Below the pieces are notes generated by a model that was not told the DNA's origin, did not search any database, and saw only the letters and a program-made list of their open reading frames with translations. Shown here in pieces: positions 1,847 through 40,026 of a stretch of 42,502 bases of DNA. The stretch lies in IMG/VR virus record IMGVR_UViG_3300023220_000066, positions 1 through 42,502 of that record; one strand, written 5' to 3'. This DNA is from a virus. The position numbers and the translations under genes are program-made. Within the stretch, counting starts at the first letter, position 1; every line of letters starts with the position of its first letter.

Positions 1847-1874
1847 GAGTTTAAAATACGTCAAAACAAAGCAT

Positions 1875-1903
1875 TTGACAATATAGCGGAATACGCGTAA
1901 TAA
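1875..1903 (+). promoter_or_regulatory. Sigma70-like promoter of antisense cassette 1
   Basis: TTGACA at 1875-1880, a 17-base spacer, then TAATAA at 1898-1903, pointing rightward to the gene at 1944. The spacer and leader resemble those of the promoter at 9356-9384: both contain AATACGC in the spacer and AAAACGAATCA followed by AGGAATAA before the start codon. The shared spacer sequence could be a regulator site. Confidence 0.75.
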
Positions 1904-1943
1904 TACATTCACCAAAACGAATCAATAAAACAGGAATAATTAA

Positions 1944-2408
1944 ATGTTAAACGAAATCAACAAAGCTTTCGCAAAATTAGACGCATTAATGTACACGAAA
2001 CAATTAAAATGGGTTCTCGAACGTAAAAATGCGTTAAAGGAATATGAAGCTGCATATTGTCTTAAACCTAAAAGCGAACAAAACATTTGGGTAAAATACC
2101 CGGAAATGCATAGGCTTTGTGGTGGTAAAACATGGTATGGAATAATCGCAGACAACAGCGTCAAAATGTTACCGCAAATCATTCGCAAGAACGTTGACGC
2201 TTTAATCGCAAAACGTAACGCCCGGATCATTGCAGCACTTAATAAAAAAGACATCACCGAAATTGAGCCGTTCGAATTAGAAGAATACGGCGACGGGTTT
2301 GAAGGTGTCTTTTATGTTGATGGTCATTGTGTATCAATTAGAACCATTCTTGCGGGTGGCTATAACATTCAATGTCTTCACCAACGCACGTTAATTAAAG
2401 TAACATAA
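1944..2408 (+). CDS. Hypothetical protein, first gene of antisense cassette 1
   Basis: This 154-residue protein matches no family I recognise. It starts at an ATG preceded by a good ribosome binding site (CAGGAATAATTAA) and downstream of the promoter at 1875-1903. The N-terminal half is rich in charged helices (ALMYTKQLKWVLERKNALKEY); the C-terminal third looks beta-rich with glycines (GDGFEGVFYVDGHCVS). It has no signal peptide, membrane segment or clear catalytic motif. It opens a run of five or six closely packed plus-strand genes lying antisense to the late transcript, so an early, possibly host-directed, role is plausible but unproven. Confidence 0.7.
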   Translation: MLNEINKAFAKLDALMYTKQLKWVLERKNALKEYEAAYCLKPKSEQNIWVKYPEMHRLCGGKTWYGIIADNSVKMLPQIIRKNVDALIAKRNARIIAALNKKDITEIEPFELEEYGDGFEGVFYVDGHCVSIRTILAGGYNIQCLHQRTLIKVT

Positions 2409-2416
2409 CTTCAATC

Positions 2417-2437
2417 GGGCGGCTTTCGGGTCGTCCC
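2417..2437 (+). terminator. Hairpin between cassette genes, possible attenuator
   Basis: GGGCGGC at 2417-2423 can pair with GTCG-CCC at 2430-2437 (one bulged T) around a short TTTCGG loop, in the 46-base gap between two genes. No uridine run follows, so it may be an attenuator or processing site, not a full terminator. Confidence 0.3.
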
Positions 2438-2454
2438 TTAATAGGAATAATAAA

Positions 2455-2646
2455 ATGAAACTAGAAACACAAAAAGTTTCGTCAATGGCTTATCGCATAT
2501 GGGACGAAGACAATAATGAAGTCGGTTATGTAAAAAAGACCGGGTATCAAGCGTACAGATTAACCATTAACGACGAATATATCGGTACGTTCAACAGCGT
2601 CGAATCATGTGTCGCGCGTTTGGTGAAACGATTGGAGTCGGTGTAA
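2455..2646 (+). CDS. Small hypothetical protein
   Basis: This 63-residue protein starts at an ATG with a ribosome binding site (AGGAATAATAAA). It looks like a compact alpha/beta protein: a short strand-rich start (VSSMAYRIWDEDNNEVGYV), aromatic residues in the middle, and a basic C-terminal helix. No family is recognised. Its stop codon shares one base with the start of the TOPRIM gene (TAATG), so the two are probably translationally coupled. Confidence 0.65.
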   Translation: MKLETQKVSSMAYRIWDEDNNEVGYVKKTGYQAYRLTINDEYIGTFNSVESCVARLVKRLESV

Positions 2647-3563
2647 TGTCTTTCATACAATATATAGATAAAAAATTCACCGCTTCGTCGTTAGCGATAA
2701 TTGATCAAGCAAACGTTATTATTGATGAAATGTCGAATGACGGCGTTTATAATTTGAGCTTACGACAATTATATTATCAATTTGTCGCGGGTGACTTAAT
2801 CGCGAACACTGAAAAGAGTTATAAAAGTCTCGGCGGTATTATCACAAATGCGCGACTCGCGGGGCTTCTGTCGTGGTCTGTAATTCAAGATCGTGGTCGC
2901 ACGTGTAACAATATGGGGTATTTTGAAGAAAGTATCGAAAGCGTAATACAGGGTCTTGACGATTCAATATCGTTCGACCATTGGGAACGTCAAGAAAATT
3001 ATGTCGAAGTTTGGATTGAAAAAGACGCTTTAACAAATGTCATTCAAGACCCTTGTTGGAAACATCACGTTCGATATATGGCGTGTAAAGGATATATGTC
3101 CGCGTCGGCGGCATGGGAAGCCGGGCAAAGGTTTCGTAAGGCCGTTGACAAAGGCAAGAATCCTGTATTAATCCACTTAGGCGACCATGACCCTTCGGGT
3201 ATAGACATGACGCGCGACAACCAAGAACGTTTAGAATTGTTTGCGGGTTGTTCGATTGATATGCGACGTATTGCCTTGAACATGGATCAAATTGACCATT
3301 ATGCACCACCGCCAAACCCGACCAAATTATCGGATAGTCGCGCCTCGGATTATATAGCCGATTATGGTGATTCAAGTTGGGAACTTGACGCTTTAAAACC
3401 TTCTGTTATTAGAAATCTTGTATCGTCAGAAATTGAAAGTTTAGTTGACGAATCTATATGGGATGACGTAACAGAACATGAAGAAGAAGAGCAAGAAAAA
3501 CTTCGCAAACTTTCTGAAAATTGGGGTTCCGTTGAATCATTCTTGGAAACAATTAATGACTAA
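2646..3563 (+). CDS. TOPRIM protein resembling topoisomerase VI subunit A / Spo11
   Basis: This 305-residue protein has an N-terminal winged-helix-like part with NLSLRQLYYQFV (residues about 36-47). That matches the position of the catalytic-tyrosine motif in topoisomerase VI A/Spo11-type proteins, with Tyr43 or Tyr44 as the candidate. A TOPRIM core follows, with Glu125 (VWIEKDAL) and the metal-binding pair Asp180/Asp182 (HLGDHDPSG). The C-terminus is acidic (EEEEQEKLRKL). Known family members cut DNA through a phosphotyrosine bond, usually with an ATPase B subunit. No GHKL ATPase is encoded here, so it may act as a nickase or nuclease, or use a host partner. ATG at 2646 is chosen over an earlier in-frame start because it overlaps the previous stop and has a GGAG site upstream. 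Confidence 0.75.
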   Translation: MSFIQYIDKKFTASSLAIIDQANVIIDEMSNDGVYNLSLRQLYYQFVAGDLIANTEKSYKSLGGIITNARLAGLLSWSVIQDRGRTCNNMGYFEESIESVIQGLDDSISFDHWERQENYVEVWIEKDALTNVIQDPCWKHHVRYMACKGYMSASAAWEAGQRFRKAVDKGKNPVLIHLGDHDPSGIDMTRDNQERLELFAGCSIDMRRIALNMDQIDHYAPPPNPTKLSDSRASDYIADYGDSSWELDALKPSVIRNLVSSEIESLVDESIWDDVTEHEEEEQEKLRKLSENWGSVESFLETIND

Positions 3564-3741
3564 AACAGCCGCAACCATTTGTCGTGACGCGGGGCTTGAA
3601 AGCCTTGGTGAACTGTCACGACTTTCCGCAGTGCCAGAACGTACTTTAAACGACTGGTATAAACCAACGCACCCGCGACACATTACTTTTCAAGTATTGG
3701 TTTTAGGTGCAACTTTAAAAAAGAAGGAACTATCAAAATGA
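3556..3741 (+). CDS. Small helix-turn-helix protein
   Basis: This 61-residue protein contains a likely helix-turn-helix: LGELSRLSAVPERTLNDWY (residues about 18-36), in which a turn between two helices is followed by a recognition-helix pattern like those of small phage DNA-binding proteins. Its ATG overlaps the end of the TOPRIM gene by eight bases; an upstream in-frame ATG at 3478 would lie deep inside that gene and is less likely. Its last codons overlap the next gene. It could be a local regulator of the cassette, but its target is not visible. Confidence 0.65.
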   Translation: MTKTAATICRDAGLESLGELSRLSAVPERTLNDWYKPTHPRHITFQVLVLGATLKKKELSK

Positions 3742-4094
3742 TTGAAAATAAAATTAGCTTAATTACATTAGGTGCCGTGTTTGGCAATCTAGTCGGACGT
3801 GACCCGCTGTATCGAAAGAAAGCGAAAAAGGTTTACCCGGACCACGTAAGACCCGAAACGCGCGCGGCATGGCTTGAACAACGTAAAACCCCCGCACCCG
3901 ATTCGCGTCAAGTAATGCGTTGTTACGCGCGTAAAAGTCACGGTTCTAATCGCGGCGGTACATTGGATTTAGGTATTAAAAAAGCTAAAAAACAATGGTC
4001 ACTATTTGACGAAGTATCGCGTACAATGATGAAATCACGCGGTTTAACTCGTTATTTCAGCCGTGACTTTACGTATAGCGGAAAGGCGGCGTAA
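3738..4094 (+). CDS. Basic hypothetical protein
   Basis: This 118-residue protein is strongly basic, with clusters such as RKKAKKVYPDH, CYARKSHGSNRGG and GIKKAKKQW. A nucleic-acid contact is suggested by charge alone. No membrane segment or recognised domain is present. It starts four bases before the end of the preceding HTH gene (ATGA overlap) and is followed within two bases by a GTG-started small gene, so it belongs to the same operon. Confidence 0.65.
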   Translation: MIENKISLITLGAVFGNLVGRDPLYRKKAKKVYPDHVRPETRAAWLEQRKTPAPDSRQVMRCYARKSHGSNRGGTLDLGIKKAKKQWSLFDEVSRTMMKSRGLTRYFSRDFTYSGKAA

Positions 4095-4095
4095 C

Positions 4096-4239
4096 GTGGG
4101 GTTTTCATTAAAAACATTTTTCACCGCTCTTGAAGGGATGCTTGAAGGTATGGAAGACGATGACATTACGTTAATGCAGATAACGGAACTTGTCGCCGAT
4201 CAAAAAAAGTATGCCGAAGAATGTGGTGTATTGGATTAA
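4096..4239 (+). CDS. Small acidic hypothetical protein with GTG start
   Basis: GTG at 4096 opens a 47-residue frame ending at TAA 4237-4239. A purine-rich stretch (GGAAAGGCGG) lies just upstream. The protein is acidic and helical (LEGMLEGMEDDDITLMQ, then VADQKKYAEE) with no recognised family. It is tightly packed after the basic gene and is the last gene of the cassette before a hairpin and the convergent portal gene. Confidence 0.55.
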   Translation: MGFSLKTFFTALEGMLEGMEDDDITLMQITELVADQKKYAEECGVLD

Positions 4240-4250
4240 CTATATAATAT

Positions 4251-4286
4251 TACACCCGGTCACATTAGGTTTGTGGTCCGGGTGTA
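4251..4286. terminator. Hairpin between convergent transcripts
   Basis: TACACCCGG at 4251-4259 is the perfect reverse complement of CCGGGTGTA at 4278-4286, and an inner CAC/GTG pair extends the stem. It lies between the end of antisense cassette 1 and the end of the portal gene. No clear uridine run follows on either side, so strength as a terminator is uncertain. Confidence 0.5.
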
Positions 4287-4308
4287 TGCCTTTATGCGGT
4301 GTCGCGTA

Positions 4309-5706
4309 TTAAGTAGGAACACCGGGCAACCCGGCAATGTCGGCGTCGTCATCTTCTGTGTCGTCAAATACACCAAGCGTCACAATATTCATAATTTCTA
4401 ATAACAATTGTTCACCGCCTACAATACCACTTAAACCGCCCATGTCATTAATCGCAGACGAAATCAACGCAACGGCTTGCGCTTTGTTCTTCTGTGTTTC
4501 GGATTGTTGCAATTCATTAAGTGATTCGTTAACAGGCCATTCGATAACAGCGTCAAGCGGTATCGGGTCGAAGTATCCGGCGACACCTAAGATCGTAAGC
4601 ACCTGACGCAACCAATCGGAACACATCATTTCTTGACGGTCTTTAATGATTTGATTGTATGCCGCTTTATCTTCGTTGCCGGACGTTTGACCACCACCTT
4701 CACCCGTAAGAATACGAAGCGGAATCCCGGTCGCGGCACTAATCATTTTAAACGTGCCTAAAATAGTTTCTTTAGGGTCCGCAAGATCGGCGGTCAATTG
4801 CGTGACGTCCATGTTACCCAAACGCAACGCGTCAGCCATACCATTTGTGAATTCAGCGATACTTTCACGCAGATCGGCAAGCATTTTTATACCGTCCGGG
4901 GTATTGGGAATCGAGTCTTTCATTGTCAACGCTAATATACGGCGCGCATTACGCCAATAAGCTTCAGCGGAACCACCCTGCGCTTTGATTAGATCAATAA
5001 CGAAGTTGTATATAGGTTCAAGCGCGGACATACCCACGAAGTCGTTATCAAGCGCGTCTTCAGCAAGATGTACAATGCGCGTATAATGGACGTTGATTGT
5101 TTGAAGGTTTGCGATGATCTTGCTATCCGCAAATTCAACAACACGCAATTGATACATTAAAGGCGCACCATATCGCGGACTCGTAACGTCAGTGTCATAT
5201 TGTGTCACTTCAACACCGTCTTCGCGATACGCTTTGAAATAGGTCGCTTTCATGGCGGCTTTCGCGTTACTGACACGACCAAGCGGTTCGTCGGGTGACT
5301 TCGCACCGTCAGGAACACCGACGAATAAAACACTAAATCGCGCGATACGGTTTAATGTATCGGCTTGTTCTAAGCGACGAAACAGCTTGATTGACTCAAG
5401 TGCTTGCAACACGTCGGTCATGATCTCTTTGTCGCCTTGCATGATCTTCGGAACGTCGCGCCAACACGAACGGGCAATACCCCGCGTTAAACGTGTCGCA
5501 ACACCATGACGCTCATACATTTTAAAGTAATCTTCGACGTCAATCGTCGCCGGATATCCGAACACGTCAGACATGTCGCGCATACCTTGATGTGTCACGT
5601 ATGGACCGCCTATAATATCATTAATACGCCGCGTCGTTGAAGCGTTTATCACTTCGGACGTTATTAATGCGGGTACACCCGGCGGTAAAACTGTTACGTC
5701 ATTCAT
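4309..5706 (-). CDS. Portal protein, DUF1073-like
   Basis: This 465-residue protein forms the dodecameric ring at the head vertex through which DNA enters and leaves. It follows the pattern of the DUF1073 group: an early DYFKMYERHGVATRLTRGIA segment, then ARSCWRDVP, a central beta region with TQYDTDVTSPRYG, then ISAATGIPLRILTGEGGGQ leading into NEDKAAYNQIIKDRQ, the usual late portal helix region. It lies downstream of the terminase genes and upstream of the Mu F-like gene, as expected. Some databases give related portals an anti-CBASS Acb1 label; nothing here supports that as the function. The C-terminus is acidic. Confidence 0.87.
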   Translation of the reverse strand: MNDVTVLPPGVPALITSEVINASTTRRINDIIGGPYVTHQGMRDMSDVFGYPATIDVEDYFKMYERHGVATRLTRGIARSCWRDVPKIMQGDKEIMTDVLQALESIKLFRRLEQADTLNRIARFSVLFVGVPDGAKSPDEPLGRVSNAKAAMKATYFKAYREDGVEVTQYDTDVTSPRYGAPLMYQLRVVEFADSKIIANLQTINVHYTRIVHLAEDALDNDFVGMSALEPIYNFVIDLIKAQGGSAEAYWRNARRILALTMKDSIPNTPDGIKMLADLRESIAEFTNGMADALRLGNMDVTQLTADLADPKETILGTFKMISAATGIPLRILTGEGGGQTSGNEDKAAYNQIIKDRQEMMCSDWLRQVLTILGVAGYFDPIPLDAVIEWPVNESLNELQQSETQKNKAQAVALISSAINDMGGLSGIVGGEQLLLEIMNIVTLGVFDDTEDDDADIAGLPGVPT

Positions 5707-5746
5707 TTTATACTGCCTTTACGCTGTTTGGTATTGGTGGTTTTTA

Positions 5747-7420
5747 TTAATTAGTCTTGTGTGCTTCAAGGTAGGGTTTTGTAGTTCCTGAGGCATTTGT
5801 AAAGTCTAAAGTTCCGCCACTGTCTTGATAAACCTGTAATTGAATAGTGTCATTAACTGCAAATTCTCCAGTATAGGTTACAGTGTCCTCACTAGTTGTC
5901 TTCGCTTGCTTCCTAGACGTAGCTACTCTACCACCATTTACAAAGATAGCCACAAACCTACTATTGGAATTACTATTCTCCCAAATACTTTGAGCAGTTA
6001 CTTGGTATTTACCTGCTGTTTTAATGGTGATTACCGAACCAGATGTGTGCATATCATCTGTGTCATACTCTTCTGTATTAAATGAAATCATAGTTGTTGT
6101 ATTATGAGAAATACTTTGATCTGTGGTATTAGTAAGTTTACAGGAGATGTCTGGCTTATTAACCTCCGCCCCTGTCTCTATACCATCCAACTTGGTCTTA
6201 TCACCATCAACAAACGCGCCCTCAGATAATATAGATTGTAACCCACTTAAATCTTGATCACCTGTATTAGTGCCTGATTGATTGCCTAATTTGGTTCTTT
6301 CCGTATCGGTCAGTATTTTCTTAGTCGCGGTTTCACTCATAGAATCCATGATAAAGGCGTCAGCATTTTTAGCAGTAGGGTCGTAAACAGCCTTAAGCAT
6401 ATCACCCGCGAAACCCGTTCCCGAATCCGCCCACGACGCGCCGTTCCAATAGAATAAATTACCGTTGGGGCTTGTCACCGTAGCAGTATCACCAGATACT
6501 GCCGTCGGATGCGCTGTTTGAAGTGCCGTTAAATCGGCAAACACACCCAAATATCGCCCACCTGTGAGACTACCTAGTTTACTCTTTTCAGCGTCGGTGT
6601 ATGCGTTCGTATCCGCATTATTTTCGTACTTAGTTTTGATATTAGCGTCAGTGAATTCAGTATCATCAACTTTTAAAGCTAAACCCGTATCAACATAATC
6701 TTCACTAGCAACTAAAACCTTAGTCAATACATGAATATCGGAGTCCAGATAAGGACACTCTTGACCAATGAATAAACCGCCGGATTGTGACAACGAACCT
6801 TTTAATTGAATACCTGAAAAACGCACGAATTGCATATCGCCTATTTCAGATATTAAACCACCATCACCCGCGTTAAACAATTCTAACATTATTAAGGTGT
6901 CAACCATCACCCCACTTATTTCAAATAAGGCATCAACTAACACCGCCCCCGTATCGTCTGTACCTTCCCATGATTGAATGCGCAATATACCTGTTGACGC
7001 GGGGATTATGCTAAAAGCTCTTGTCAATGTGTTACCGACCGCGCCACTAAACGCTAAGTCTTGAGGGTCCGATAGAGCAACCGCACTATCGGGGCAAACG
7101 TTAACGGTCTGTCTAGGGGGTATGAACCATTTCTCTAAAACAGTGCCGCCCGTGTCGTCATAGTAATATTGAGCGAATAACGTGTTTCTTTCCCTAGCGT
7201 CAGTGAACGCTAAAGCTCTAGCCGATGAACTTACACGTGCGCCGCCTTTACCTAAAATAAGAGAACCAGAAGGCACCGTTATGGCTTGTAAAAATTCAAC
7301 AGGTCCGGCGACCGTTTGCGGTGTCAAACTGACTTTATCAAGTTTATTAGTTATTTCTGTGGCTTCACCGCCGTAAAACTGTTTACCTTTTTCACTTTCA
7401 AAATCTTTACCTTGTGCCAT
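5747..7420 (-). CDS. Fibre-like receptor-binding protein with C1q/TNF-like C-terminus
   Basis: This 557-residue protein is built like a phage fibre. It contains short segments typical of fibre shafts (ADTNAYTDAEKSKLGSL, ILTDTERTKLGNQSGTNTG, DGDKTKLDGIETGAEVNKP) and a common phage module ending in GNLFYWNGASWADSGTG. The last 120 or so residues look like a C1q/TNF jelly roll (TAGKYQVTAQSIWEN, then FVAIFVNGGRVATS and NDTIQLQVYQDSGG), a trimeric receptor-binding fold. It is unusual in lying between the large terminase and the portal, so it may be a head fibre. The DNA for the C-terminal third is strikingly poor in CpG compared with its neighbours, which suggests it was acquired by recombination. 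Confidence 0.75.
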   Translation of the reverse strand: MAQGKDFESEKGKQFYGGEATEITNKLDKVSLTPQTVAGPVEFLQAITVPSGSLILGKGGARVSSSARALAFTDARERNTLFAQYYYDDTGGTVLEKWFIPPRQTVNVCPDSAVALSDPQDLAFSGAVGNTLTRAFSIIPASTGILRIQSWEGTDDTGAVLVDALFEISGVMVDTLIMLELFNAGDGGLISEIGDMQFVRFSGIQLKGSLSQSGGLFIGQECPYLDSDIHVLTKVLVASEDYVDTGLALKVDDTEFTDANIKTKYENNADTNAYTDAEKSKLGSLTGGRYLGVFADLTALQTAHPTAVSGDTATVTSPNGNLFYWNGASWADSGTGFAGDMLKAVYDPTAKNADAFIMDSMSETATKKILTDTERTKLGNQSGTNTGDQDLSGLQSILSEGAFVDGDKTKLDGIETGAEVNKPDISCKLTNTTDQSISHNTTTMISFNTEEYDTDDMHTSGSVITIKTAGKYQVTAQSIWENSNSNSRFVAIFVNGGRVATSRKQAKTTSEDTVTYTGEFAVNDTIQLQVYQDSGGTLDFTNASGTTKPYLEAHKTN

Positions 7421-7421
7421 G

Positions 7422-7763
7422 TTACACCACCGCTATTGTAATATTAACGTCAACACCCGCGTCAATCGCTGTTAACGTCATTTTAAACGCTTCAGCTTTC
7501 ACGTCAAACGGTTGAAAGTATTCGCCATTAGTTATATCAAGTTCGATAACGGCGTCATCAAAATCGACATGACCGACGGGCTTGACCGCCACCTGAAGCG
7601 AACCCAATGTCAGACTAGACGGGTCAACAGGGTCACCTTGCGCGTCACGTAAATCATACGTTACTTGCCATGAATTTTCGTTTGTACCGCTGATAGAAAC
7701 ATCTTTGATTTCTTCAGTTGTTATTGAATTTAATGTTACGTCGAAGCTATTGTTCTTGCTCAT
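7422..7763 (-). CDS. Small beta-rich structural protein
   Basis: This 113-residue protein is almost all predicted beta strand with an immunoglobulin-like rhythm (SWQVTYDLRDAQGDPVDPSS, GSLQVAVKPV, AFKMTLTAIDAGVDVNITI). It ends one base before the fibre-like gene and follows the terminase gene closely. The size and location suggest a decoration, fibre-attachment or chaperone protein that works with the fibre, but no family is recognised. Confidence 0.6.
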   Translation of the reverse strand: MSKNNSFDVTLNSITTEEIKDVSISGTNENSWQVTYDLRDAQGDPVDPSSLTLGSLQVAVKPVGHVDFDDAVIELDITNGEYFQPFDVKAEAFKMTLTAIDAGVDVNITIAVV

Positions 7764-7767
7764 CTTA

Positions 7768-9327
7768 TCACCATGATATTATTGTTTCAGTAAGTAGATA
7801 CCAAGCGTACACCATAACCAATGAATCCGCAAGGTTTGGCGACTTAGTTCCGTCAGGTTGTTTATCAACCACGATTAAGCCGTTTGAATCCTTACGTGTC
7901 ACTTGCGACAATTCCGCTTCAAGACGCCTTAATAACGGCATTGCAGACGATAAAGAAATCAATTCATTCCACGTATAGTCACACGGTTCGCCGTTTTCTA
8001 TGGCTTCGCGCGCCTTGAACGTATTTTCAAACAACGTGCGAAGGTTCCACCACGTTTGCGCTTTAAAGTTTTTGAATATGTCTTTGTTTTTGACGTCGGT
8101 ATCACCGAAGAACGAATCAGGATAGGCCACTTTCCATGAACCTTTAAACGCTTTAACCGCAACTTCTGTTTCGTCTTTGGTTTCAACGCGTACACCTACA
8201 CCAAGACCCACCGCGTCATAAATCAATTCTTTATGACCGCGCAGCTTCAATGACGATATGATTTCCGATGTAACATGTTCGATGCGACCGTCAGGCCATT
8301 CTTGAACGTCTGTTGTAAGCATACCTTCAATCATAGAAAGCGCATGTGTGTCACCGCCGCCGTCCATTGGATCATAAGCGGCGTGTTTACCTTCGCCTTG
8401 AACACCTTCGAATATTAGATGAAAATCAATTGCAGCTTTAACCCATTTGTTAGGTATTATAATACCTGTGACAGACGCGGTATAATCCCGTTGATACTCT
8501 TGCGCGAAGACATGACCAAGACCCGCCGCTTCAAGCTGCGCTTTCTTTTTAGCCAAGAATTCTTTTGTCATCCACGGCACGTCGGTACAGTCAATGACCA
8601 TAACCCGGACTTCGCCGCCGAATCGCTTGGTGTAAAATATGTTGCCTATGCCATTGACCGAACTGAAGTCGATTTGAACATGTGTGTTTTCAGATAGTGA
8701 CGCTTCAATCAATGCCGGGTGTTCGTAATGCGCGCTTTCATCTTTGAAATATAACGTTGTACGACCACCACGACCGATACCGTCACCCGCTTCGCCAATG
8801 ATCGACGCGCCGTTGTCGAGATTAATACATTTATTCAATGATAGGTTATATTCGCGCGGCTTTGCGAAGTTTGGCAATTTATCAATCGTGTAACGTATCT
8901 TTTCGAATATCGAATCCATGTTGCCGAGTTGATCGACGTACATTGCTTTGCGTGAACCCCACCCGATAGAAACGTCATCATGACACACCCAAAGCCACAC
9001 GGAGAAAGCAACGAATAACCATGTCGCACCCGCGCCACGCGTCTTTTCAAGTAAACCATGTTCTTCGTCATCAATACAGCCTTGAAGCCATTCAACGACT
9101 TCTAACTGTTTCGGGTATAGTAGGAACGGTTTGACGACGATGTTGTTATTCGTCTTCTTACCCTTACGCGGGTCAATGGTCCAACAAAAGTCTTGAATGA
9201 AGGATATCGGATCGTCCTTGTACACCGCTTGAAACACCTTGCGCGGGTCGGCAAGATCATAAAAAGCGTTAATCAGCTTTTCGCGGCGTATCGCTTCTTT
9301 TGCGTAGTTTGGGTTCCAATGGATCAT
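7768..9327 (-). CDS. terL: Terminase large subunit
   Basis: This 519-residue protein is the packaging motor. The N-terminal ATPase has a Walker A-like LLEKTRGAGATW (residues about 93-104) and a Walker B with catalytic acids in TTLYFKDESAHYEHP. The C-terminal RNase H-like nuclease has three acidic motifs: AYDPMDGGGDTHAL, LIYDAVGLGVG and the late PNLADSLVMVYAW. Length and motif order are normal for the family. It powers translocation of DNA into the prohead through the portal and cuts the concatemer. The small subunit lies upstream, separated by antisense cassette 2. Confidence 0.95.
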   Translation of the reverse strand: MIHWNPNYAKEAIRREKLINAFYDLADPRKVFQAVYKDDPISFIQDFCWTIDPRKGKKTNNNIVVKPFLLYPKQLEVVEWLQGCIDDEEHGLLEKTRGAGATWLFVAFSVWLWVCHDDVSIGWGSRKAMYVDQLGNMDSIFEKIRYTIDKLPNFAKPREYNLSLNKCINLDNGASIIGEAGDGIGRGGRTTLYFKDESAHYEHPALIEASLSENTHVQIDFSSVNGIGNIFYTKRFGGEVRVMVIDCTDVPWMTKEFLAKKKAQLEAAGLGHVFAQEYQRDYTASVTGIIIPNKWVKAAIDFHLIFEGVQGEGKHAAYDPMDGGGDTHALSMIEGMLTTDVQEWPDGRIEHVTSEIISSLKLRGHKELIYDAVGLGVGVRVETKDETEVAVKAFKGSWKVAYPDSFFGDTDVKNKDIFKNFKAQTWWNLRTLFENTFKAREAIENGEPCDYTWNELISLSSAMPLLRRLEAELSQVTRKDSNGLIVVDKQPDGTKSPNLADSLVMVYAWYLLTETIISW

Positions 9328-9355
9328 TCGTTTAAAATAGATTATTCGATTGTAT

Positions 9356-9384
9356 TTGACAATACGCGAAATACGCCGTATAAC
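9356..9384 (+). promoter_or_regulatory. Sigma70-like promoter of antisense cassette 2
   Basis: TTGACA at 9356-9361, a 17-base spacer, then TATAAC at 9379-9384, reading rightward to the gene at 9420. The spacer holds two direct copies of AATACGC. Spacer and leader are related to the promoter at 1875-1903, including AAAACGAATCA and AGGAATAA upstream of the ATG. Confidence 0.78.
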
Positions 9385-9419
9385 ATACTTAATGAAAACG
9401 AATCATAGGAATAAATCAA

Positions 9420-9629
9420 ATGACTAAATATAAAACAACATACCGCCCGGAAATATCAGAAAACAAAGACGGTAGCGTTTACGTTCTTATCGTGCGCGTT
9501 GACCGTGACGGCGAAACAAGAGTCATTCACGGTTATAAGGGGCGCACGTTACAAAGCCGTCGCGCCGCTATCATATCAACGCGTAAATACATGAAAGCGC
9601 AAGGGTTGCGTATGGAGTCGGGCGAATGA
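9420..9629 (+). CDS. Small basic beta-rich protein, first gene of antisense cassette 2
   Basis: This 69-residue protein starts behind an AGGAATAA site and the promoter at 9356-9384. The N-terminal half looks like beta strands (GSVYVLIVRVDRDGETRVI) and the C-terminal half like a basic helix (LQSRRAAIISTRKYMKAQG). That arrangement resembles small DNA-binding or integrase arm-type folds, but no family match is claimed. It overlaps the next small membrane gene by four bases (ATGA). Confidence 0.65.
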   Translation: MTKYKTTYRPEISENKDGSVYVLIVRVDRDGETRVIHGYKGRTLQSRRAAIISTRKYMKAQGLRMESGE

Positions 9630-9739
9630 TACATAATCAAGCACTAACCGACACCATCACGCTATTCATCCCGGCGTTCATATTCGCCGCCGCTGTAATG
9701 TTAATCATTTGGAGTTTTAAACGTCATGACCATAAATAA
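9626..9739 (+). CDS. Single-span membrane peptide
   Basis: A 37-residue frame running from an ATG that overlaps the previous stop to TAA at 9737-9739. It has one strongly hydrophobic stretch (LFIPAFIFAAAVMLIIW, residues about 13-29) followed by a positively charged tail (SFKRHDHK), giving a typical N-out, C-in single-span topology. It overlaps the next gene by 14 bases. Small phage membrane peptides of this kind often affect the host envelope or superinfection; that role is a guess here. Confidence 0.6.
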   Translation: MIHNQALTDTITLFIPAFIFAAAVMLIIWSFKRHDHK

Positions 9740-10040
9740 AAAATGGACCGCAACAATGGACGACCGGGTTCGTCAATTCGGTGTATCAATTAAAGACGCA
9801 TCTGAAGCACTTAAACGATTAGGTGAAGCGGCGCAACCAATCACACAACACGACGCACCGGGCTTTTGGGCTTGGTTGCAACGTCAGCTTAATATAGGTG
9901 GTTACACCTTCAGTATGGAAATCGAAACCGTCAATTGTAGGTGTGCGCCTTGTGACAGGCGTTATATGATCGTCTATACCGTCAAACCGAAAACATTAAT
10001 CGTTGATAGTTCTACATGGACGGGAAGGGAATCGATATGA
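9726..10040 (+). CDS. Hypothetical protein with a CxCxxC cluster
   Basis: This 104-residue protein begins inside the end of the membrane peptide gene. The first half is helical (DDRVRQFGVSIKDASEALKRL); the middle is aromatic (GFWAWLQRQL); then comes a cysteine cluster, NCRCAPCDRRYM, that could bind a metal. No family is recognised. The next gene starts at its stop codon. Confidence 0.65.
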   Translation: MTINKKWTATMDDRVRQFGVSIKDASEALKRLGEAAQPITQHDAPGFWAWLQRQLNIGGYTFSMEIETVNCRCAPCDRRYMIVYTVKPKTLIVDSSTWTGRESI

Positions 10041-10234
10041 ATTTTCCAACTGAAACAGGCGTTAGACTTAAGAAAAATTGTTCTGGTTGCAGGGCGTTGG
10101 ATTTGCAAAAATGTACGCTTGGTTATGAAACAGAAACTTACGGATTTATGGGGGCATGGGTAAAACCAAAAGAAATTTGCGAAAAGCCGCGAACAAATAA
10201 GCGTTATATAAAATTATTAGGTGATAAATCATGA
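10037..10234 (+). CDS. Small putative zinc-binding protein
   Basis: This 65-residue protein has four cysteines arranged as CSGC near residues 15-18, then a Cys in LQKCTLGY and another in KEICEKP, a plausible zinc knuckle. ATG at 10037 is chosen because it overlaps the previous stop (ATGA) and has a strong purine-rich site (GGGAAGGGA) at the right distance; an ATG at 10016 would add seven residues. The function is unknown. Confidence 0.6.
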   Translation: MNFPTETGVRLKKNCSGCRALDLQKCTLGYETETYGFMGAWVKPKEICEKPRTNKRYIKLLGDKS

Positions 10235-10464
10235 ATGAATTTAAATACTGGTCAAAAGACCGTAACCTTCACCGTTGGTATTTTGATGACGGATCATATA
10301 TCGAAGCGCGTCGTCGCAATTCGTTTCATATATTCAAAATAGCCGACCACCCCCTTACACGATTAAAAGAAAATCAGGCGCATATCGAATTTCATAAATG
10401 CGACAACGCGCCGCTTATGAAATCAATATATAACATTACTGGAATCGATTGTGCCAAAACTTGA
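10231..10464 (+). CDS. Hypothetical protein
   Basis: A 77-residue protein rich in aromatic residues and histidines (YWSKDRNLHRWYFDDGSYIE, FHIFKIADHPL). It overlaps the previous gene by four bases and the following GTG-started gene by 14, so it is part of the same tightly coupled cassette. No recognised domain, signal or membrane segment. Confidence 0.6.
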   Translation: MNEFKYWSKDRNLHRWYFDDGSYIEARRRNSFHIFKIADHPLTRLKENQAHIEFHKCDNAPLMKSIYNITGIDCAKT

Positions 10465-10711
10465 AAAAGAAACGTCTGTTGAATTCGGTACACGTGTCGG
10501 CGAATCATTAATTGGTTCAGGCGACCCTTTACCCGACGAAATAATTGACGATCACGAAGCCGCGACAGCATTGGACGAAATAACAATGAATTGTGTTGTT
10601 TGCGGTTGGTGGTATGAAACGAATGATATAAAAATAATAGATGGTGAATCAAAATGTAATGATTGTTCCTGTTATTTAGTCGATAACGACGGTTACATAA
10701 TCACCGCTTAA
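10451..10711 (+). CDS. Putative zinc-ribbon protein, GTG start
   Basis: GTG at 10451 opens an 86-residue frame. After an acidic helical first half (PLPDEIIDDHEAATALDEI) comes CVVCGWWYETN and, about 20 residues later, CNDCSC, a two-pair cysteine pattern typical of a small zinc ribbon. It is the last gene of antisense cassette 2. Its stop codon overlaps that of the convergent small terminase gene, leaving no room for a terminator between opposing transcripts. Confidence 0.62.
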   Translation: MPKLEKETSVEFGTRVGESLIGSGDPLPDEIIDDHEAATALDEITMNCVVCGWWYETNDIKIIDGESKCNDCSCYLVDNDGYIITA

Positions 10712-11316
10712 TCTTCACCCGTTATATCGACCTTACCCTTTAGGTCACGAATGGCTTGCAATGCTTTGTCGGCGTCTTTGGTGTCCACTACACGCACCTG
10801 TTGATCAATCGCCAACGCCGCGCCGTAAGTCCCTTTGTTACGCGACGCAAGCATCTTGAATGCAACCGCATCATTATAAACAACTTCAGTATCAACACGG
10901 AATCCCTTGTGATAGACGCCTTTTTCGACGCCGTATATTGATCTGTTCATTAAAGCGTCTTCAAGGTCGTTTGTCCCGGCGTCAAGGGCTTCCTGTACAG
11001 CCGCCGCGAATTGAGCGTTGCGTTTCCTTAATGATTGAAACCCACTATACGCCAAACCGACGGCTTCGCACGACCGCGTAATGTTCTGACTTAACCGCAA
11101 GAAATGTAAGAAATTGTTGCGCGCCGTCTTTGACCATTTAGGCCATTTTTTAAACGGTGCGCGACCTTTATCGCGGGGTGGCCTTTGTAAGAACATTTCT
11201 GGATATGTACGCACCTTAACGCCGGGTAAGGCCGTTACGGGAATCCCCGTTTCGGACTGCGGTTCCATGCCGGGTAAAGGCGGTAAAATTTCTGGTATAA
11301 TTTCGGTCATGGTCAC
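10708..11316 (-). CDS. terS: Terminase small subunit
   Basis: This 202-residue protein has the expected shape of a DNA-recognition subunit: a proline-rich N-terminus (residues 1-60), a helix-turn-helix-like block (RLSQNITRSCEAVGLAYSGF, about 92-111), and then helices of the oligomerisation region containing ALDAGTNDLEDALMNRS and KMLASRNKGTYG, which recur in phage small terminases. It chooses the packaging start and hands DNA to the large subunit. It is the first minus-strand late gene downstream of the 493-bp non-coding region, where the packaging site may lie. No strong ribosome binding site is visible before the ATG; a second in-frame ATG lies at 11310. Confidence 0.78.
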   Translation of the reverse strand: MTMTEIIPEILPPLPGMEPQSETGIPVTALPGVKVRTYPEMFLQRPPRDKGRAPFKKWPKWSKTARNNFLHFLRLSQNITRSCEAVGLAYSGFQSLRKRNAQFAAAVQEALDAGTNDLEDALMNRSIYGVEKGVYHKGFRVDTEVVYNDAVAFKMLASRNKGTYGAALAIDQQVRVVDTKDADKALQAIRDLKGKVDITGED

Positions 11317-11572
11317 AGGTTAGCGTATATGCGAAAACAAAGCAAACATAACACACATTTCATAAACAGCGAAAATGGTACTAGAATACCCTTAAACAAC
11401 ACGACTCCACATGAAGACGGCTTAAAATGGCGCAATACTGCGAAAAAGTAGCTAAAAAGCGTCAGGCGACTCCACCTTCAAAAGTTAACGCGTCGGCCTA
11501 AACCCCTTTAAAAACATATAGTTAACACTACGACGACTCCACTTTTACCATTAACTAGAATTATATAGAGTG

Positions 11573-11605
11573 ATAGTATAGTATAGAGCGAGTGTACTAT
11601 ACTAT
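11573..11605. repeat. Perfect 11-bp inverted repeat
   Basis: ATAGTATAGTA at 11573-11583 is matched by TACTATACTAT at 11595-11605 around an 11-base loop. AT-rich and immediately followed by a second inverted repeat. It may be an operator or an origin hairpin. Confidence 0.6.
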
Positions 11606-11637
11606 GTTAGGGGGCGGGGGATATGAAGACCCCTAAC
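11606..11637. repeat. Perfect 8-bp inverted repeat with G-rich loop
   Basis: GTTAGGGG at 11606-11613 is matched by CCCCTAAC at 11630-11637. The loop contains the rest of a G-run. It abuts the preceding inverted repeat without a gap. Confidence 0.55.
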
Positions 11638-11750
11638 TGGAGTCGGCTACCCCTGTAACCCGCACAAAACCGCCGTTTTTGGACGACTCGACACGACTTG
11701 AGCCGACGCCGCTTTGCGCAACCCCTTGAATTTAAACGATTTAATACCGC

Positions 11751-11778
11751 TTGACACCGTTTGACTATACTATATAAT
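11751..11778 (+). promoter_or_regulatory. Strong sigma70-like promoter of the early operon
   Basis: Consensus TTGACA at 11751-11756 and consensus TATAAT at 11773-11778, spacer 16 bases, about 30 bases upstream of the ATG at 11810. An AAAAGGA ribosome binding site follows. The spacer contains CTATACTAT, which resembles an arm of the inverted repeat at 11573-11605, so one regulator could bind both. Confidence 0.82.
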
Positions 11779-11809
11779 ATACTCGAAACACACAGAAAAG
11801 GACTAAATC

Positions 11810-18530: not shown

Positions 18531-18839
18531 TTATCCTATAATATTGAAATTCTTTTTTGTTTTTTCTTTTAATTCTTCCGACATACTCATTGCGGCGGGT
18601 TCGTTATTGGTAAGCGCAATAATTAATATGTCAAAGTTTTCTTCACGAATTGCGGTTTCAACGACAGCATTACGCAACGCCACAAGTGACCCGAAATAAT
18701 GTTTTATCGTTGATCTGGAACACCCGCAACATTGCATGATATCCTTGAACGTCGTTGACATTAAACGCCCCTGTGTCGCTAAATGATACGCCGCGTCTAA
18801 TATCTGGCTGTATCGTTGTTCTTTGATTAATCGAACCAT
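18531..18839 (-). CDS. Short TetR-like helix-turn-helix protein
   Basis: This 102-residue protein begins with a TetR/AcrR-type DNA-binding domain: ILDAAYHLATQG, then STTFKDIMQCCGCSRSTIKH, then YFGSLVALRNAVV. The large ligand-binding domain of typical TetR proteins (about 190-210 residues in all) is missing; only a short lysine-rich tail remains. It overlaps the end of the VRR-NUC gene by 13 bases. It may repress a phage promoter, for example the palindrome at 21272-21287, without needing a ligand. That target is inferred only. Confidence 0.75.
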   Translation of the reverse strand: MVRLIKEQRYSQILDAAYHLATQGRLMSTTFKDIMQCCGCSRSTIKHYFGSLVALRNAVVETAIREENFDILIIALTNNEPAAMSMSEELKEKTKKNFNIIG

Positions 18840-19541: not shown

Positions 19542-21252
19542 TTTGTAATACCTCATTGATTTTATTTGTAAGTGATACGGCGTCAATGCGGTTTAATGCT
19601 TTCGCTGATTGAACGTCGATATTGAATAAATTGTAAAATTTACGTTGGATATACGAATCGGTTTTACCTTGTTGATTATAAATACCACCGAAGAAACCCA
19701 TTGATTCGCGTAATAACTGTTGAGCTTCTTTTTTCTCATTGTGTTTATTACGGCGACCCGCTGCGATAAATTCGCTTTGACCTTGACGAATCGATTCGTC
19801 AAATACGTCTTCGCCCGGACGGTCAACCTTTTCGACTTCGCCGCGCAGCTTACGCAACGTTGCCGCGTCAAGTTCCATTAAATCGCCATCAACGAATTTT
19901 GGTTCGGATCGTTTCGCGGGTTCGGGCTTAAATCCACAGAAAGGACAAGCGGATAAATATCCGTTATATGGTTTAAAGCATCCGGGATTTAAACACGATT
20001 TTAACGGGTCAATATTTGGGTCGGCGATTTGTTTCTTTACAATACGGTCAAGCGTCCAAACACGCGGCGCGTCGGGTAAAGCATGACGACCGAACGAATT
20101 ACCTTTTGCGAAATTACCCACATGGTCGAGATATATTGCTTTCGGCTTTGGCCCCGCTGCAATTGCTGCTAAACGTCCCGTTTGTGTTTCAAGGTTATAA
20201 CCGGGTGCATATTCAGGACGTAAAGCGCGACCGAATTGTTGTGACGCTAGACCGAACGATTGCGTTGCCCTTGCGCCGCTTACGACGCCTAGTGATGGTA
20301 AGTCAAACCCTTCACCAAACAAATCGACGTTGACCATTTGTTGCAATTGCCCCGACCTAAAACGACGGATTATTTCAGCGCGAATCGCTTCAGGTGTTTT
20401 CGCATCAACGAAAGCAGACTTAACCCCTGCTTCAAGATACTTTTGATGTATGTTACTACCTGTTTCAACGTCTGTTGCGAATGTAATACCTTGCATACCG
20501 TCACTATATTTAATGAAATGTTTCACAACGTCGCCGACAATGTGTGAATGTTCAGCGGCTTTTTTCAAACTTGGCAACGTGTAATCGCCGTTCGCACCAA
20601 TTTTCATGACTGATTCGTCTATGTCTGAAGGGGGGCAAATGATGCGGTAATCTGATAAATAACCTTGATCAATCAACCAACGCATTGTCGGGCCTTCGAC
20701 GATACAATCAAACACCCCGTCGTTATGACGTCCTAGTCCTTGACCGTCGGCGCGCAACGGCGTCGCTGTTACACCAAGGCCGCGCGCGTTCGGGAATATT
20801 TCAGGAACTTTACCCCATTTATTTTCTTTTAAAACGTGGTGCGCTTCGTCCTGTATCCAGTATCTTACATGGGGCGACCACGATTTTAACATTTCTTTTT
20901 CGTAATGTGATTTTAGAGTATCAACGGACACCGCGCCGACCATAGCGTTCGGGTCGGTACTATGAATTTTTAACTCTTTATAATTGGCGTTGCTTATGAA
21001 TTTAACCGTTGTCGGTGGCGCAATGATTCGGTGACGTACATCAACACGCGCTAACGTCAGCGACATTTGCGCAACAAGTTCTTTACGATGCGCGACCGCA
21101 GCAAGCGACGTATTTAAAAGCCTTGTGATTTCAGCAAACACAACGGTTTTACCACCCCCCGTCGGAAGTACATATAATACGTTCTTATAACCCGCGTTCC
21201 ATGCCGCAAAGATTTCGTTGACGTTATTTTGTTGGTATGGTCTTAATTTCAT
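19525..21252 (-). CDS. SF2 DEAD/DEAH-box helicase with C-terminal zinc finger
   Basis: This 575-residue protein has the standard SF2 order: Q-like RPYQQNNV at the start, Walker A LPTGGGKT (residues 29-36), DEAH (135-138), VTATPLRADG (161-170), and motif VI-like QQFGRALRPEY (338-348). A four-cysteine zinc finger follows (Cys420, 425, 436, 439). Such phage helicases, often called DEAD/DEAH or type III restriction-like, unwind or remodel DNA during replication and recombination. It is the first gene of the leftward operon. The ATG follows a weak AAGAAA site, and the promoter on this strand would give an almost leaderless message. Confidence 0.93.
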   Translation of the reverse strand: MKLRPYQQNNVNEIFAAWNAGYKNVLYVLPTGGGKTVVFAEITRLLNTSLAAVAHRKELVAQMSLTLARVDVRHRIIAPPTTVKFISNANYKELKIHSTDPNAMVGAVSVDTLKSHYEKEMLKSWSPHVRYWIQDEAHHVLKENKWGKVPEIFPNARGLGVTATPLRADGQGLGRHNDGVFDCIVEGPTMRWLIDQGYLSDYRIICPPSDIDESVMKIGANGDYTLPSLKKAAEHSHIVGDVVKHFIKYSDGMQGITFATDVETGSNIHQKYLEAGVKSAFVDAKTPEAIRAEIIRRFRSGQLQQMVNVDLFGEGFDLPSLGVVSGARATQSFGLASQQFGRALRPEYAPGYNLETQTGRLAAIAAGPKPKAIYLDHVGNFAKGNSFGRHALPDAPRVWTLDRIVKKQIADPNIDPLKSCLNPGCFKPYNGYLSACPFCGFKPEPAKRSEPKFVDGDLMELDAATLRKLRGEVEKVDRPGEDVFDESIRQGQSEFIAAGRRNKHNEKKEAQQLLRESMGFFGGIYNQQGKTDSYIQRKFYNLFNIDVQSAKALNRIDAVSLTNKINEVLQNVKTN

Positions 21253-21271
21253 AATTTCTTTTTAAACACTG

Positions 21272-21300
21272 TTGACTTGATAGTCAATAGGGTCTAATAA
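21272..21300 (+). promoter_or_regulatory. Rightward replication promoter with overlapping palindromic operator
   Basis: TTGACT at 21272-21277, 17-base spacer, TAATAA at 21295-21300. The -35 box is the left half of a perfect palindrome, TTGACT-TGAT-AGTCAA (21272-21287). The right half, read on the minus strand, is another TTGACT, 17 bases from TAAAAA. Two divergent promoters may therefore share one operator. A ribosome binding site (AAGGAA) lies before the ATG at 21337. Confidence 0.72.
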
Positions 21301-21336
21301 CTATTTACACAAAACATTTAAATAAGGAATTTCAAA

Positions 21337-22041
21337 ATGAAAGCCACATTAACAATCGAAGCGAATGGTCGCGGCGATATAGACGTTTTAGAAGATATTT
21401 TAAAACAAATTCGCGTCAGAACACCTTTCTCAAATGAAGAAAACATTGACGCAGCAATCGAGAAAATCGAACAACCCGCTACGAACGAAGGTAATATCAT
21501 TAACAAACCATTTACCGAAGCGAATGTCGGGTTACCTACCGAACCGCAAACGAACACGCATGTTGACGTTGACGCCAAGGGTGTTCCGTGGTCCGCAGAT
21601 TTCCACACAAGCAATAAAAGCGTGAAAGCCGACGGTACATTTAAAATGAAACCGGGTACTGACAAAGACGATTTTGCAGCATACACGGCGCAACATACAC
21701 CCGCCACGACACCAACCGTCACCGAAGACCCTGTTACCGAAACAACAGCGGCACCGGGTGCAATGCTTGGTATGCCGGGTGCAACACAAGAACCCGTCGT
21801 TAAAACTCCGCTTGAAATGCTTAACGCTCGCATTATCGCAATTTCGACAAGTGAGCAACTTTGCGCCGTTTTAGGTTGGGACGGATCGAAATCATGGCAT
21901 ACGTTAAAACCCGCTGAAGCTATCAACGGAATTCTTATCGCGTATGGTATCGAAGGTGGTTTTGTTAATCTTAGCACCGCAACCGAAGATAAAATCATCC
22001 AAATTAATAAAGGCTTGGATGAAGCATGGCCCGGTCTGTAA
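21337..22041 (+). CDS. Conserved phage protein of the recombination/replication operon
   Basis: This 234-residue protein has a short conserved block I recall from other phages, DAKGVPWSADFHTSNKSVKA followed by DGTFKMKPG (residues about 78-106). Around it are acidic and Thr/Pro-rich linkers (TPATTPTVTEDPVTE). The C-terminal 80 residues form a separate helical domain (TPLEMLNARIIAISTSEQLC, NGILIAYGIEGGF). It is the first gene of the rightward operon and overlaps the nuclease gene by 16 bases, so a role in DNA handling is likely. The exact function is unknown. Confidence 0.65.
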   Translation: MKATLTIEANGRGDIDVLEDILKQIRVRTPFSNEENIDAAIEKIEQPATNEGNIINKPFTEANVGLPTEPQTNTHVDVDAKGVPWSADFHTSNKSVKADGTFKMKPGTDKDDFAAYTAQHTPATTPTVTEDPVTETTAAPGAMLGMPGATQEPVVKTPLEMLNARIIAISTSEQLCAVLGWDGSKSWHTLKPAEAINGILIAYGIEGGFVNLSTATEDKIIQINKGLDEAWPGL

Positions 22042-23150: not shown

Positions 23151-24063
23151 TACATTATTATGTTCACCACGTGGACGACTTTTAAACTTCTATATCTTTG
23201 ATAAGAAGACAACCGATTATCTAGGCAAACAACAGCCTGACGAATCGAAACACTCATTCGAAGCATGGGTTGCTATTCCTAAAAACGATCCGAAATGGGT
23301 TGAATATTGGGCGCAAGCGCAAAATGCCGCAATGCAAGATTTTGCACAAAATCAGGAATATAATTGGCCGAATTTTTCTTGGAAATTAGCAGACGGTGAC
23401 GGCGTTAATAGTAAAAATAAACCGTACCCGGAACATTGCAAAGGGTGTTGGTTATTGTCTTATACTTCAAACTACGATGTTGAAATATATAACGACCAAA
23501 ATCAACCGCTTACTAAATTGCATAACGCTGTTAAAGCAGGTGATTACGTTGAAATTTACGGATCGTTTAAAGGTAACGGCAACACAGATAAACCCGGCAT
23601 TTTCTTAAACCTAAATAAATTACGCGTTGTGGGTATTGGTGACGCTATTATTTCCGGTCCTTCAGCCGAACAAGCTTTCGGTGCCGCTGCGCCGGGTGGT
23701 GGCAATAATATGCCGAACACTGGTGGTAATAACATGCCACCACAAGGCAATAATATGCCGAACACTGGTGGTAATAACATGCCACCACAAGGCAATAATA
23801 TGCCGAACACTGGTGGTAATAATATGCCGAACACTGGTGGTAATAACATGCCACCACAAGGCAATAATATGCCGAACACTGGTGGTAATAATATGCCACC
23901 ACAAGGCAATAATATGCCGAACACTGGTGGTAATAACATGCCACCACAAGGCAATAATATGCCGAACACTGGTGGTGCGTCATACAGTGGTTATACAGAG
24001 CAAAATAACCCGCAAAATAACCAAGGTGGCAACATGTTACCGGGTGATCATATCCCTCATTAA
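23140..24063 (+). CDS. DUF2815-like ssDNA-binding protein with repetitive tail
   Basis: This 307-residue protein has an OB-fold-like N-terminal part (residues about 1-180) resembling phage ssDNA-binding proteins that accompany DUF2800 nucleases, with aromatic residues suited to base stacking ([23 protein letters not shown]). The tail is a run of alternating NNMPNTGG (seven) and NNMPPQG (five) units, then a final [13 protein letters not shown]. That last stretch recalls the DDIPF tip by which bacterial SSB recruits partners, though less acidic. ATG at 23140 has AAAGGA upstream and overlaps the nuclease gene; an earlier TTG is less likely. Confidence 0.78.
23704..23976 (+). repeat. Coding tandem repeats in the ssDNA-binding protein tail
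   Basis: Twelve in-frame units of 24 or 21 bases, mostly alternating, encode NNMPNTGG and NNMPPQG. Copies are almost identical in DNA sequence, with only an occasional T/C silent change in AATAAY, showing recent expansion. Long open frames on all strands across this region are a by-product. Confidence 0.92.
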
Positions 24064-27030: not shown

Positions 27031-27574
27031 ACGTTCAAATTTCGACCGTAAGGCGCGCGACTTCTATGAAACATGGGATATCAACGCCGTGAAGCCCGTC
27101 ATAGCGCATTTAAGGCAAGGGTTCACGTATATCGACCCTTGTACGGGTTCGGGTTACATTAAGCAGCATATGACCGCCTTAACGCCTTTCGCATGTGTGG
27201 GCGAATATGAAGCACACCCGTTATATTATCTTTATCGCGGTTTGATACAAGCCGACGCGACGAATTACCAGTACCCGAAACAAGGTGATTTTTTCATTAC
27301 TAACCCACCTTGGGAAAGGCACCTATTACATGCGATAATATGGAACCTAATGAACCAAAAACCCACATGGTTATTATTCGACGCTGATTGGATACATACG
27401 AAACAAATCGGGCGTGATAAAACGGTTAAAGATTTAATGAAGCATTGCATCAAGATCGTCAGCATAGGTCGGGTGAAATGGATTAAGGACTCAAAACATT
27501 CAGGTAAGGATAATTGCGCTTGGTACTTGTTTGACATTAATCACAACGGCGCGACAGAATTTATTGAGCGATAG
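27023..27574 (+). CDS. DNA adenine-type methyltransferase
   Basis: This 183-residue protein has an AdoMet-binding motif I, YIDPCTGSGYI (residues about 36-46), and a catalytic motif IV, ITNPPWERH (92-100), as in N6-adenine and N4-cytosine methylases. It has little room for a separate target-recognition domain, so specificity may be relaxed. No restriction endonuclease partner is present, which suggests protection of phage DNA or regulation. Its end overlaps the convergent lysis-side gene, with no terminator space. Confidence 0.82.
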   Translation: MAKRSNFDRKARDFYETWDINAVKPVIAHLRQGFTYIDPCTGSGYIKQHMTALTPFACVGEYEAHPLYYLYRGLIQADATNYQYPKQGDFFITNPPWERHLLHAIIWNLMNQKPTWLLFDADWIHTKQIGRDKTVKDLMKHCIKIVSIGRVKWIKDSKHSGKDNCAWYLFDINHNGATEFIER

Positions 27575-27821
27575 CGCAACCCGTACCTTGATACTTTAGT
27601 TGTTGCGATATTTGGCAATATTCGAATTTTTCTTTAGGTGTCAAACCTTGCTTTTCACGTTTGGTTTCTAACACTTGCCACCGCTGTAAAAGAATAGACG
27701 TGGTGTTTGCAGTAACTTGAGCAACGATTCCCGATGCATAACTAAAACCGCCATAAAGTGTCCCGGTAGATGCACATAAAATTAAAATTATACTGCAAAT
27801 TTTAGTTATAGAAAAATTCAT
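27561..27821 (-). CDS. Small exported or membrane protein near the lysis genes
   Basis: This 86-residue protein begins with a hydrophobic segment (ICSIILILCASTGTLYGGFSY) that may be a signal anchor. The rest is soluble (LLQRWQVLETKREKQG, FEYCQISQQLKYQGTGC), with two cysteines that could form a disulfide in the periplasm. It overlaps the Rz-like gene by four bases and is the last gene of the late series. The function is unknown; an accessory lysis role is possible. Confidence 0.62.
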   Translation of the reverse strand: MNFSITKICSIILILCASTGTLYGGFSYASGIVAQVTANTTSILLQRWQVLETKREKQGLTPKEKFEYCQISQQLKYQGTGCAIAQ

Positions 27822-28459: not shown

Positions 28460-28761
28460 TATGACACCTTATTTAAAATAGAAGACAGTTTATCATTTAT
28501 GATCTTGGCTGTACTATTCCCGGCATAACCACATGAGGCGGCGGTCAATACGTTCATATATTCCGGCTTCATTTCAAGTATCGCCATGAAACAAATTATC
28601 GAACCGAATATTGACGTAAGGCTTCGCGGAATGTCGGATATCCAGAAATCAACCCACCCTTTTAAACTTGTGAATTTCCCGGCTTCAGTAAGTCGTTTTA
28701 AGAAATGCAAAAACAAACCCATTGTAAGTGCGATGCACCATATGATCATTTGATCGGTCAT
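28459..28761 (-). CDS. Holin-like membrane protein
   Basis: This 100-residue protein starts at an ATG with AAAAGGG upstream. It has two or three hydrophobic segments (MIIWCIALTMGLFLHFL, then LTSIFGSIICFMAILEM, then a weaker one near VLTAASCGYAG) and a charged end. Size, topology and position between endolysin and spanin genes fit a holin, which forms the inner-membrane lesions that set lysis timing. An in-frame extension to 28830 would lie inside the endolysin gene and is unlikely. Confidence 0.72.
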   Translation of the reverse strand: MTDQMIIWCIALTMGLFLHFLKRLTEAGKFTSLKGWVDFWISDIPRSLTSIFGSIICFMAILEMKPEYMNVLTAASCGYAGNSTAKIINDKLSSILNKVS

Positions 28762-28762
28762 G

Positions 28763-29179: not shown

Positions 29180-29190
29180 TTTAATAACCT

Positions 29191-29466: not shown

Positions 29467-29467
29467 A

Positions 29468-30023: not shown

Positions 30024-30035
30024 GAATCGATTCCT

Positions 30036-31052: not shown

Positions 31053-31062
31053 TTCTAATACC

Positions 31063-40025: not shown

Positions 40026-40026
40026 T

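Follow-up and report, generated by a model that had tools for sequence, protein, structure and literature searches.

In the 9NA-like phages (Nonanavirus/Sashavirus: Salmonella 9NA and Sasha, Klebsiella KP13-27), the virion genes are interspersed with an unusually large number of small genes (PMC4153490). In the literature other than Zeng et al. (2019), the principal paper on this group, which may already describe it, no rule was found by which such insertions share a promoter. In bidirectional promoters, mutual exclusion of the two sides matters only if one of them is strongly activated (PMC12825309). We analysed a tailed phage with comparable insertions, using its whole IMG/VR record of 42,502 bases, here called the window.

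Antisense cassettes among the packaging and head genes

The interrupted operon lies on the minus strand and runs leftwards from terS, the terminase small subunit gene (10708-11316), through terL, the terminase large subunit gene (7768-9327), a further minus-strand gene (5747-7763) and the portal gene (4309-5706) to a MuF-like head morphogenesis gene (950-1846). The capsid, tail and lysis genes also occupy the minus strand, at 27561-42502. As the preliminary description had it, two groups of plus-strand genes break up the packaging and head genes: cassette 1 (1944-4239) sits between portal and MuF, and cassette 2 (9420-10711) between terS and terL. The two genes that resume the operon after the cassettes, terL and MuF, are without a Shine-Dalgarno site. 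TerL cannot start farther upstream, because no in-frame start codon occurs before 9327 and the conserved residues of its family begin near its N-terminus.

Two other regions of the window are repetitive. Between terS and the early operon lie 493 bp of non-coding DNA (11317-11809) with three direct CGACTCCAC repeats at a spacing of about 65 bp, palindromes rich in A and T, and inverted copies of the repeat motif (TGGAGTCG); this stretch is possibly an origin or a pac (packaging) site. In an SSB-like gene (23656-24021), tandem 45-bp units encode a repetitive tail.

Cassette 1 opens with a gene of 154 aa (1944-2408), followed by a 63-aa gene (2455-2646) with no Pfam or PHROGs match, a topoisomerase-like gene (2646-3563; PHROG 6247), a gene of about 60 aa (3559-3741) that is HTH-like by eye only and has no database match, a 118-aa gene without a match (3738-4094) and a 47-aa gene (4096-4239). 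Cassette 2 comprises genes of 69 aa (9420-9629), 104 aa (9726-10040; no match), 65 aa (10037-10234; cysteine-rich, no match), 77 aa (10231-10464) and 86 aa (10451-10711), the last with CxxC pairs and assigned to PHROG 2855, of unknown function. The final gene of cassette 2 converges with terS, and the stop codons of the two overlap (10708-10711). For most cassette genes, no function was found in Pfam or PHROGs. The topoisomerase-like gene bears out the earlier view of the cassettes as early-type, since its homologues in PaMx25 and Pam3 lie among replication or DNA-metabolism genes and the cassette promoter of the relatives described below also heads replication genes. From this context we infer that the cassettes are early and are driven by the promoter-like sites at their heads.

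The best phage match of the first gene of cassette 1 is a 50% homologue in Pseudanabaena phage Pan1, and there too it comes first in an antisense cassette, of two genes, that lies among head genes (3501-4246 in Pan1, between minor structural and PhoH genes). Pan1 has a P22-like coat protein, hence its virion module differs from that of the window. Its cassette has a TTGACA-type promoter of its own; the leader was considered as a copy of the same unit and rejected, as it is not recognisably like the window leaders.

A promoter-leader unit before different genes

The regions preceding the two cassettes had been described as one regulatory unit, duplicated and then joined to different genes. The comparison agrees with this: the two leaders align locally with z = 12.7 against dinucleotide-preserving shuffles, and their conserved blocks are CATnnnTTTAAAATA (13/15 identical), TTTGACAATA (10/10), GCGnAATACGC (10/11) and AAAACGAATCA (11/11). 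By comparison, the 15 nt separating the CATnnnTTTAAAATA and TTTGACAATA blocks are identical at 5 positions, and the coding DNA flanking the leaders is unrelated, with 23 and 31 matches per 100. This blockwise pattern fits a single ancestral regulatory unit kept by function, not a recent copy. Within the 42,502-nt window, no further exact copy of AAAACGAATCA or GCGnAATACGC was found beyond the two leaders. The terS and helicase junctions were also tested for similarity to the two leaders and rejected.

The extent of the unit required revision. Its relatedness stands, whereas the proposed beginnings at 1875 and 9356 do not: the shared unit begins about 30 nt further upstream, at the minus-strand start codons (1844 and 9325). 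As re-bounded on the plus strand, copy 1 lies between the MuF start and cassette 1 (1844-1943) and copy 2 between the terL start and cassette 2 (9325-9419), and both include the side towards terL and MuF. The putative plus-strand promoter of cassette 1 reads TTGACA-18-AATAAT (1875-1904), with the -35 element at 1875-1880, an 18-nt spacer and the -10 element at 1899-1904; that of cassette 2 reads TTGACA-17-TATAAC (9356-9384), with the -35 element at 9356-9361, a 17-nt spacer and the -10 element at 9379-9384. The leader box AAAACGAATCA is found at 1914-1924 and 9395-9405. Between the plus -35 and -10 elements of copy 1 is an imperfect palindrome, GCGGAATACGC (1886-1896), a candidate operator at about -45 from the minus-strand start; a second candidate, GCGAAATACGC (9366-9376), lies in copy 2 at about -44.

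Because one leader heads unrelated genes, and because 9NA-like genomes are mosaic (PMC4153490) and hold many promoter copies, the repeated leader could serve chiefly as a site for homologous recombination, through which cassettes are swapped as in morons, with its regulatory content incidental. We regard this as very improbable, given that conservation in the window is confined to the promoter and leader blocks, with no continuous tract, and that no repeat was found at the other ends of the cassettes.

The relatives of the phage are distant and largely syntenic. The best TerL matches, in 9NA, KP13-27 and others, are 39-42% identical, and neither megablast, nor exact TerL peptides searched in viral and genome contigs, nor helicase peptides returned a close relative. 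Searches of IMG/VR with the window leader patterns gave only matches that were seemingly coding or otherwise unrelated. At the level of gene order, 9NA, Sasha, KP13-27 and contig L066 have antisense cassettes of small genes at the same places as the window, the sites in these relatives being terS|terL, terL|portal, portal|MuF and after MuF. One sigma70-type promoter, TTTAAAATAATTCTTGAC[G/A]..., recurs at the head of these cassettes in 9NA, Sasha and KP13-27; most pairwise z values of its copies fall between 5 and 47. We counted 11 copies in 50 kb of KP13-27 and 8 in 50 kb of 9NA, one of them before SSB/polymerase genes. Contig L066 and Vibrio phage 1.098 (two copies) are weaker cases of a shared promoter. 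The antisense cassette promoters of L066 (5844-5946 and 10154-10296) have in common a palindrome, GTCTAGAC, which is a candidate operator. The copying of one regulatory unit before different genes is thus a design that the window has in common with 9NA, Sasha, KP13-27 and L066. Since the promoter copies of the relatives also head replication genes, the cassettes seem to belong to a dispersed early regulon.

Relatives without the cassettes, whose existence had been taken to tell against this arrangement, do occur: in Pam3, RHph_TM26 and HMSP1-Susan, terS and terL are co-directional with no antisense cassette, so that the cassettes are a lineage-specific addition; 9NA, Sasha, KP13-27 and L066 are not of this kind. 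When we surveyed 38 loci with at least two divergent junctions, with a gene tiling that is crude for GC-rich contigs, a shared element was detected automatically in only five, which means that the shared-promoter rule does not hold throughout this terminase family. The arrangement is a recurrent trait of lineages and not a universal one. Where the cassette promoter is shared, it provides a simple rule, by which the small-gene insertions would all be parts of a single dispersed early regulon.

The edge facing terL and MuF

On the minus strand, each copy of the unit contains a second promoter-like site that the preliminary description had missed. The putative leaderless promoter of MuF (1846-1881) consists of TTGTCA (1881-1876), 17 nt, TATTTT (1858-1853), 6 nt and the ATG (1846), and that of terL (9327-9362) of TTGTCA (9362-9357), 17 nt, TATTTT (9339-9334), 6 nt and the ATG (9327). 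In both leaders, the minus TTGTCA overlaps the plus -35 element, TTGACA. As candidates for leaderless expression, terL and MuF lack a Shine-Dalgarno site and have a putative -10 element that ends 6 nt before the ATG. The TTGTCA/TATTTT pair scores only 9/12 matches, and the surrounding region is not enriched overall in such sites.

A third divergent junction, before the helicase gene (21252-21300), pairs a minus TTGACT-17-TAAAAA-6-ATG with a plus TTGACT-17-TAATAA; it is not homologous to the two leaders and is therefore a separate case. At this divergent helicase/early junction (21252-21337), a perfect palindrome, TTGACT-TGAT-AGTCAA, supplies the -35 element of both strands.

We examined the minus-strand starts in two ways, both designed after the pattern had been noticed. 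In a leaderless-promoter score that uses approximate promoter weights, terL, MuF and helicase rank first to third among 35 minus-strand genes, all with the 6-nt/17-nt geometry and all at divergent junctions, a ranking with a chance probability of about 6e-4 in which terL and MuF amount to one observation, not two, as they stem from one duplication. In AT-matched background, the corresponding fractions are 0.003 (terL/MuF) and 0.013 (helicase). At the start of terS, the fourth minus-strand first gene, this scoring found no good -35 element. The Shine-Dalgarno site, for its part, is absent from all four minus-strand first genes at divergent junctions, as against 2 of 31 other minus-strand genes (about 3e-4), and present in all four plus-strand first genes. 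The helicase operon is presumably early, from which it follows that the leaderless minus-strand promoters would not be specific to late genes.

The same elements have also to be weighed as parts of a unit that works in one direction, in which TTTAAAATA would be an upstream (UP) element of the plus promoter, and terL and MuF would be expressed from the terS promoter, by transcription that reads through the cassettes. The string GTTTAAAATA is directly upstream of the -35 element in several cassette promoters of 9NA and KP13-27, and for this reason it may be an upstream activating element instead of a -10 element; in the window, GTTTAAAATA is about one helical turn higher (near -56), a place for a distal UP subsite, and the ends of cassette 2 and terS are without a stable hairpin. 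A one-directional unit leaves unexplained, however, why it is precisely the minus-strand first genes that lack Shine-Dalgarno sites, and why the -10-to-ATG geometry recurs at the unrelated helicase junction. We consider it unlikely, if deserving of attention. A common late-promoter motif was looked for across 9NA, KP13-27 and Sasha and not found; because nothing unusual was seen in the start regions of late genes in 9NA, KP13-27 and Vibrio 1.098, the two-sided form may be restricted to the lineage of the window.

The reading that we favour, and hold to be somewhat probable, is that of early cassettes under overlapping divergent promoters, with a leaderless restart on the minus strand and membership in a dispersed early regulon. 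Each cassette would be a self-contained early transcription unit, antisense within the packaging/head operon and headed by a copy of the window's own sigma70-type promoter-leader unit. The unit would have two sides, giving a leadered early cassette in one direction and, in the other, a leaderless terL or MuF mRNA that restarts the interrupted operon; judged by its sequence, such a two-way leaderless unit is a reasonable proposal. Plus-strand starts are predicted near 1911 and 9391, and minus-strand starts at 1846 and 9327. With 64-65 bp between the opposed starts, there would hardly be room for two polymerases at once, and strong activity of either promoter would exclude the other.

A mutually exclusive switch acting through the GCGnAATACGC palindrome is possible. 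The motif lies within the plus promoter and, counted from the minus start, near -44, so that a bound protein could block one promoter and help the other; more tentatively, a phage regulator on this site could turn the cassette off and the late gene on. A small TetR_N-like DNA-binding protein, matching Pfam at the cut-off and assigned to PHROG 8723, is encoded in the helicase/primase operon (18531-18839). By its sequence family only, this TetR-like protein could be speculated to be a candidate regulator. It is doubtful that the two-way unit was copied with each backward cassette and that one regulator flips all copies. If the unit was so copied, each insertion would come with an early promoter for its own genes and a leaderless restart promoter for the interrupted virion gene, which would explain why the phage tolerates insertions in an essential late operon. 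The two-way unit itself would indicate how a cassette can enter such an operon without silencing it, and would be an unusual instance of a terminase gene expressed from a leaderless mRNA.

These minus-strand sites bear on a further proposal of the preliminary description, in which late transcription runs through the cassettes, and opposing transcription, with antisense RNA formed between late and cassette mRNA, switches between the programmes. The minus promoter-like sites are directly before terL and MuF, downstream of each cassette, so read-through need not be required. Where cassette 1 and portal converge, there is a stable hairpin (4251-4287) lacking a U-tract on either strand; no stable hairpin was found at the cassette 2/terS end, where the overlap at 10708-10711 has no clear terminator and makes some antisense RNA likely. 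Against a switch of this kind stand, besides the position of the minus-strand sites, the annotated terminators at the convergent ends in Sasha and the co-directional relatives, which need none; we think it improbable. The occurrence of the cassettes and the relatedness of their leaders are confirmed, the reading of a duplicated unit is supported and reaches to relatives as well, and the antisense switch finds no support in the sequence. If a switch exists, the promoter overlap would be a better-placed candidate than antisense RNA.

Comparison with known systems

The 9NA-like phages resemble the window in having antisense cassettes at the same places, each under a copy of a shared promoter, and in their replication modules (helicase, nuclease, primase; exonuclease, SSB, polymerase), 9NA itself sharing the helicase/primase and polymerase modules with the window phage. 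With the TerL identity given above and no DNA match, they do not have a closely related core genome. Their cassette promoter, TTAAAATAATTCTTGAC, does not occur in the window, whose own promoter unit is related in kind; they also have more cassettes, and no -10 element was seen 6 nt before their late ATG codons.

In the bidirectional promoters described by Warman et al. (PMC12825309), RNA polymerase engages one side at a time, as would be the case here. Those promoters share a -10 element and usually have starts 10-23 bp apart, whereas in the window it is the -35 elements that overlap and the predicted distance is 64-65 bp. Phage morons are likewise self-contained accessory genes between essential genes, and promoter-like TTGACA/-10 pairs at both cassette heads agree with the promoter of their own that morons have. 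Morons also have their own terminator; in the window, the hairpin without a U-tract after cassette 1 may be a counterpart, and cassette 2 shows no clear one. The window cassettes differ from morons in being antisense, in holding several genes and in their shared, putatively early promoter.

The lambda PR/PRM promoters have start sites 82 bp apart, and CI bound there blocks one promoter and helps the other. The window has virion genes in place of repressor and cro, and its predicted starts are about 65 bp apart. In the geometry of the sequence, the two systems are alike: both would have back-to-back overlapping promoters, a palindrome that possibly serves both, and a leaderless RNA from one side.
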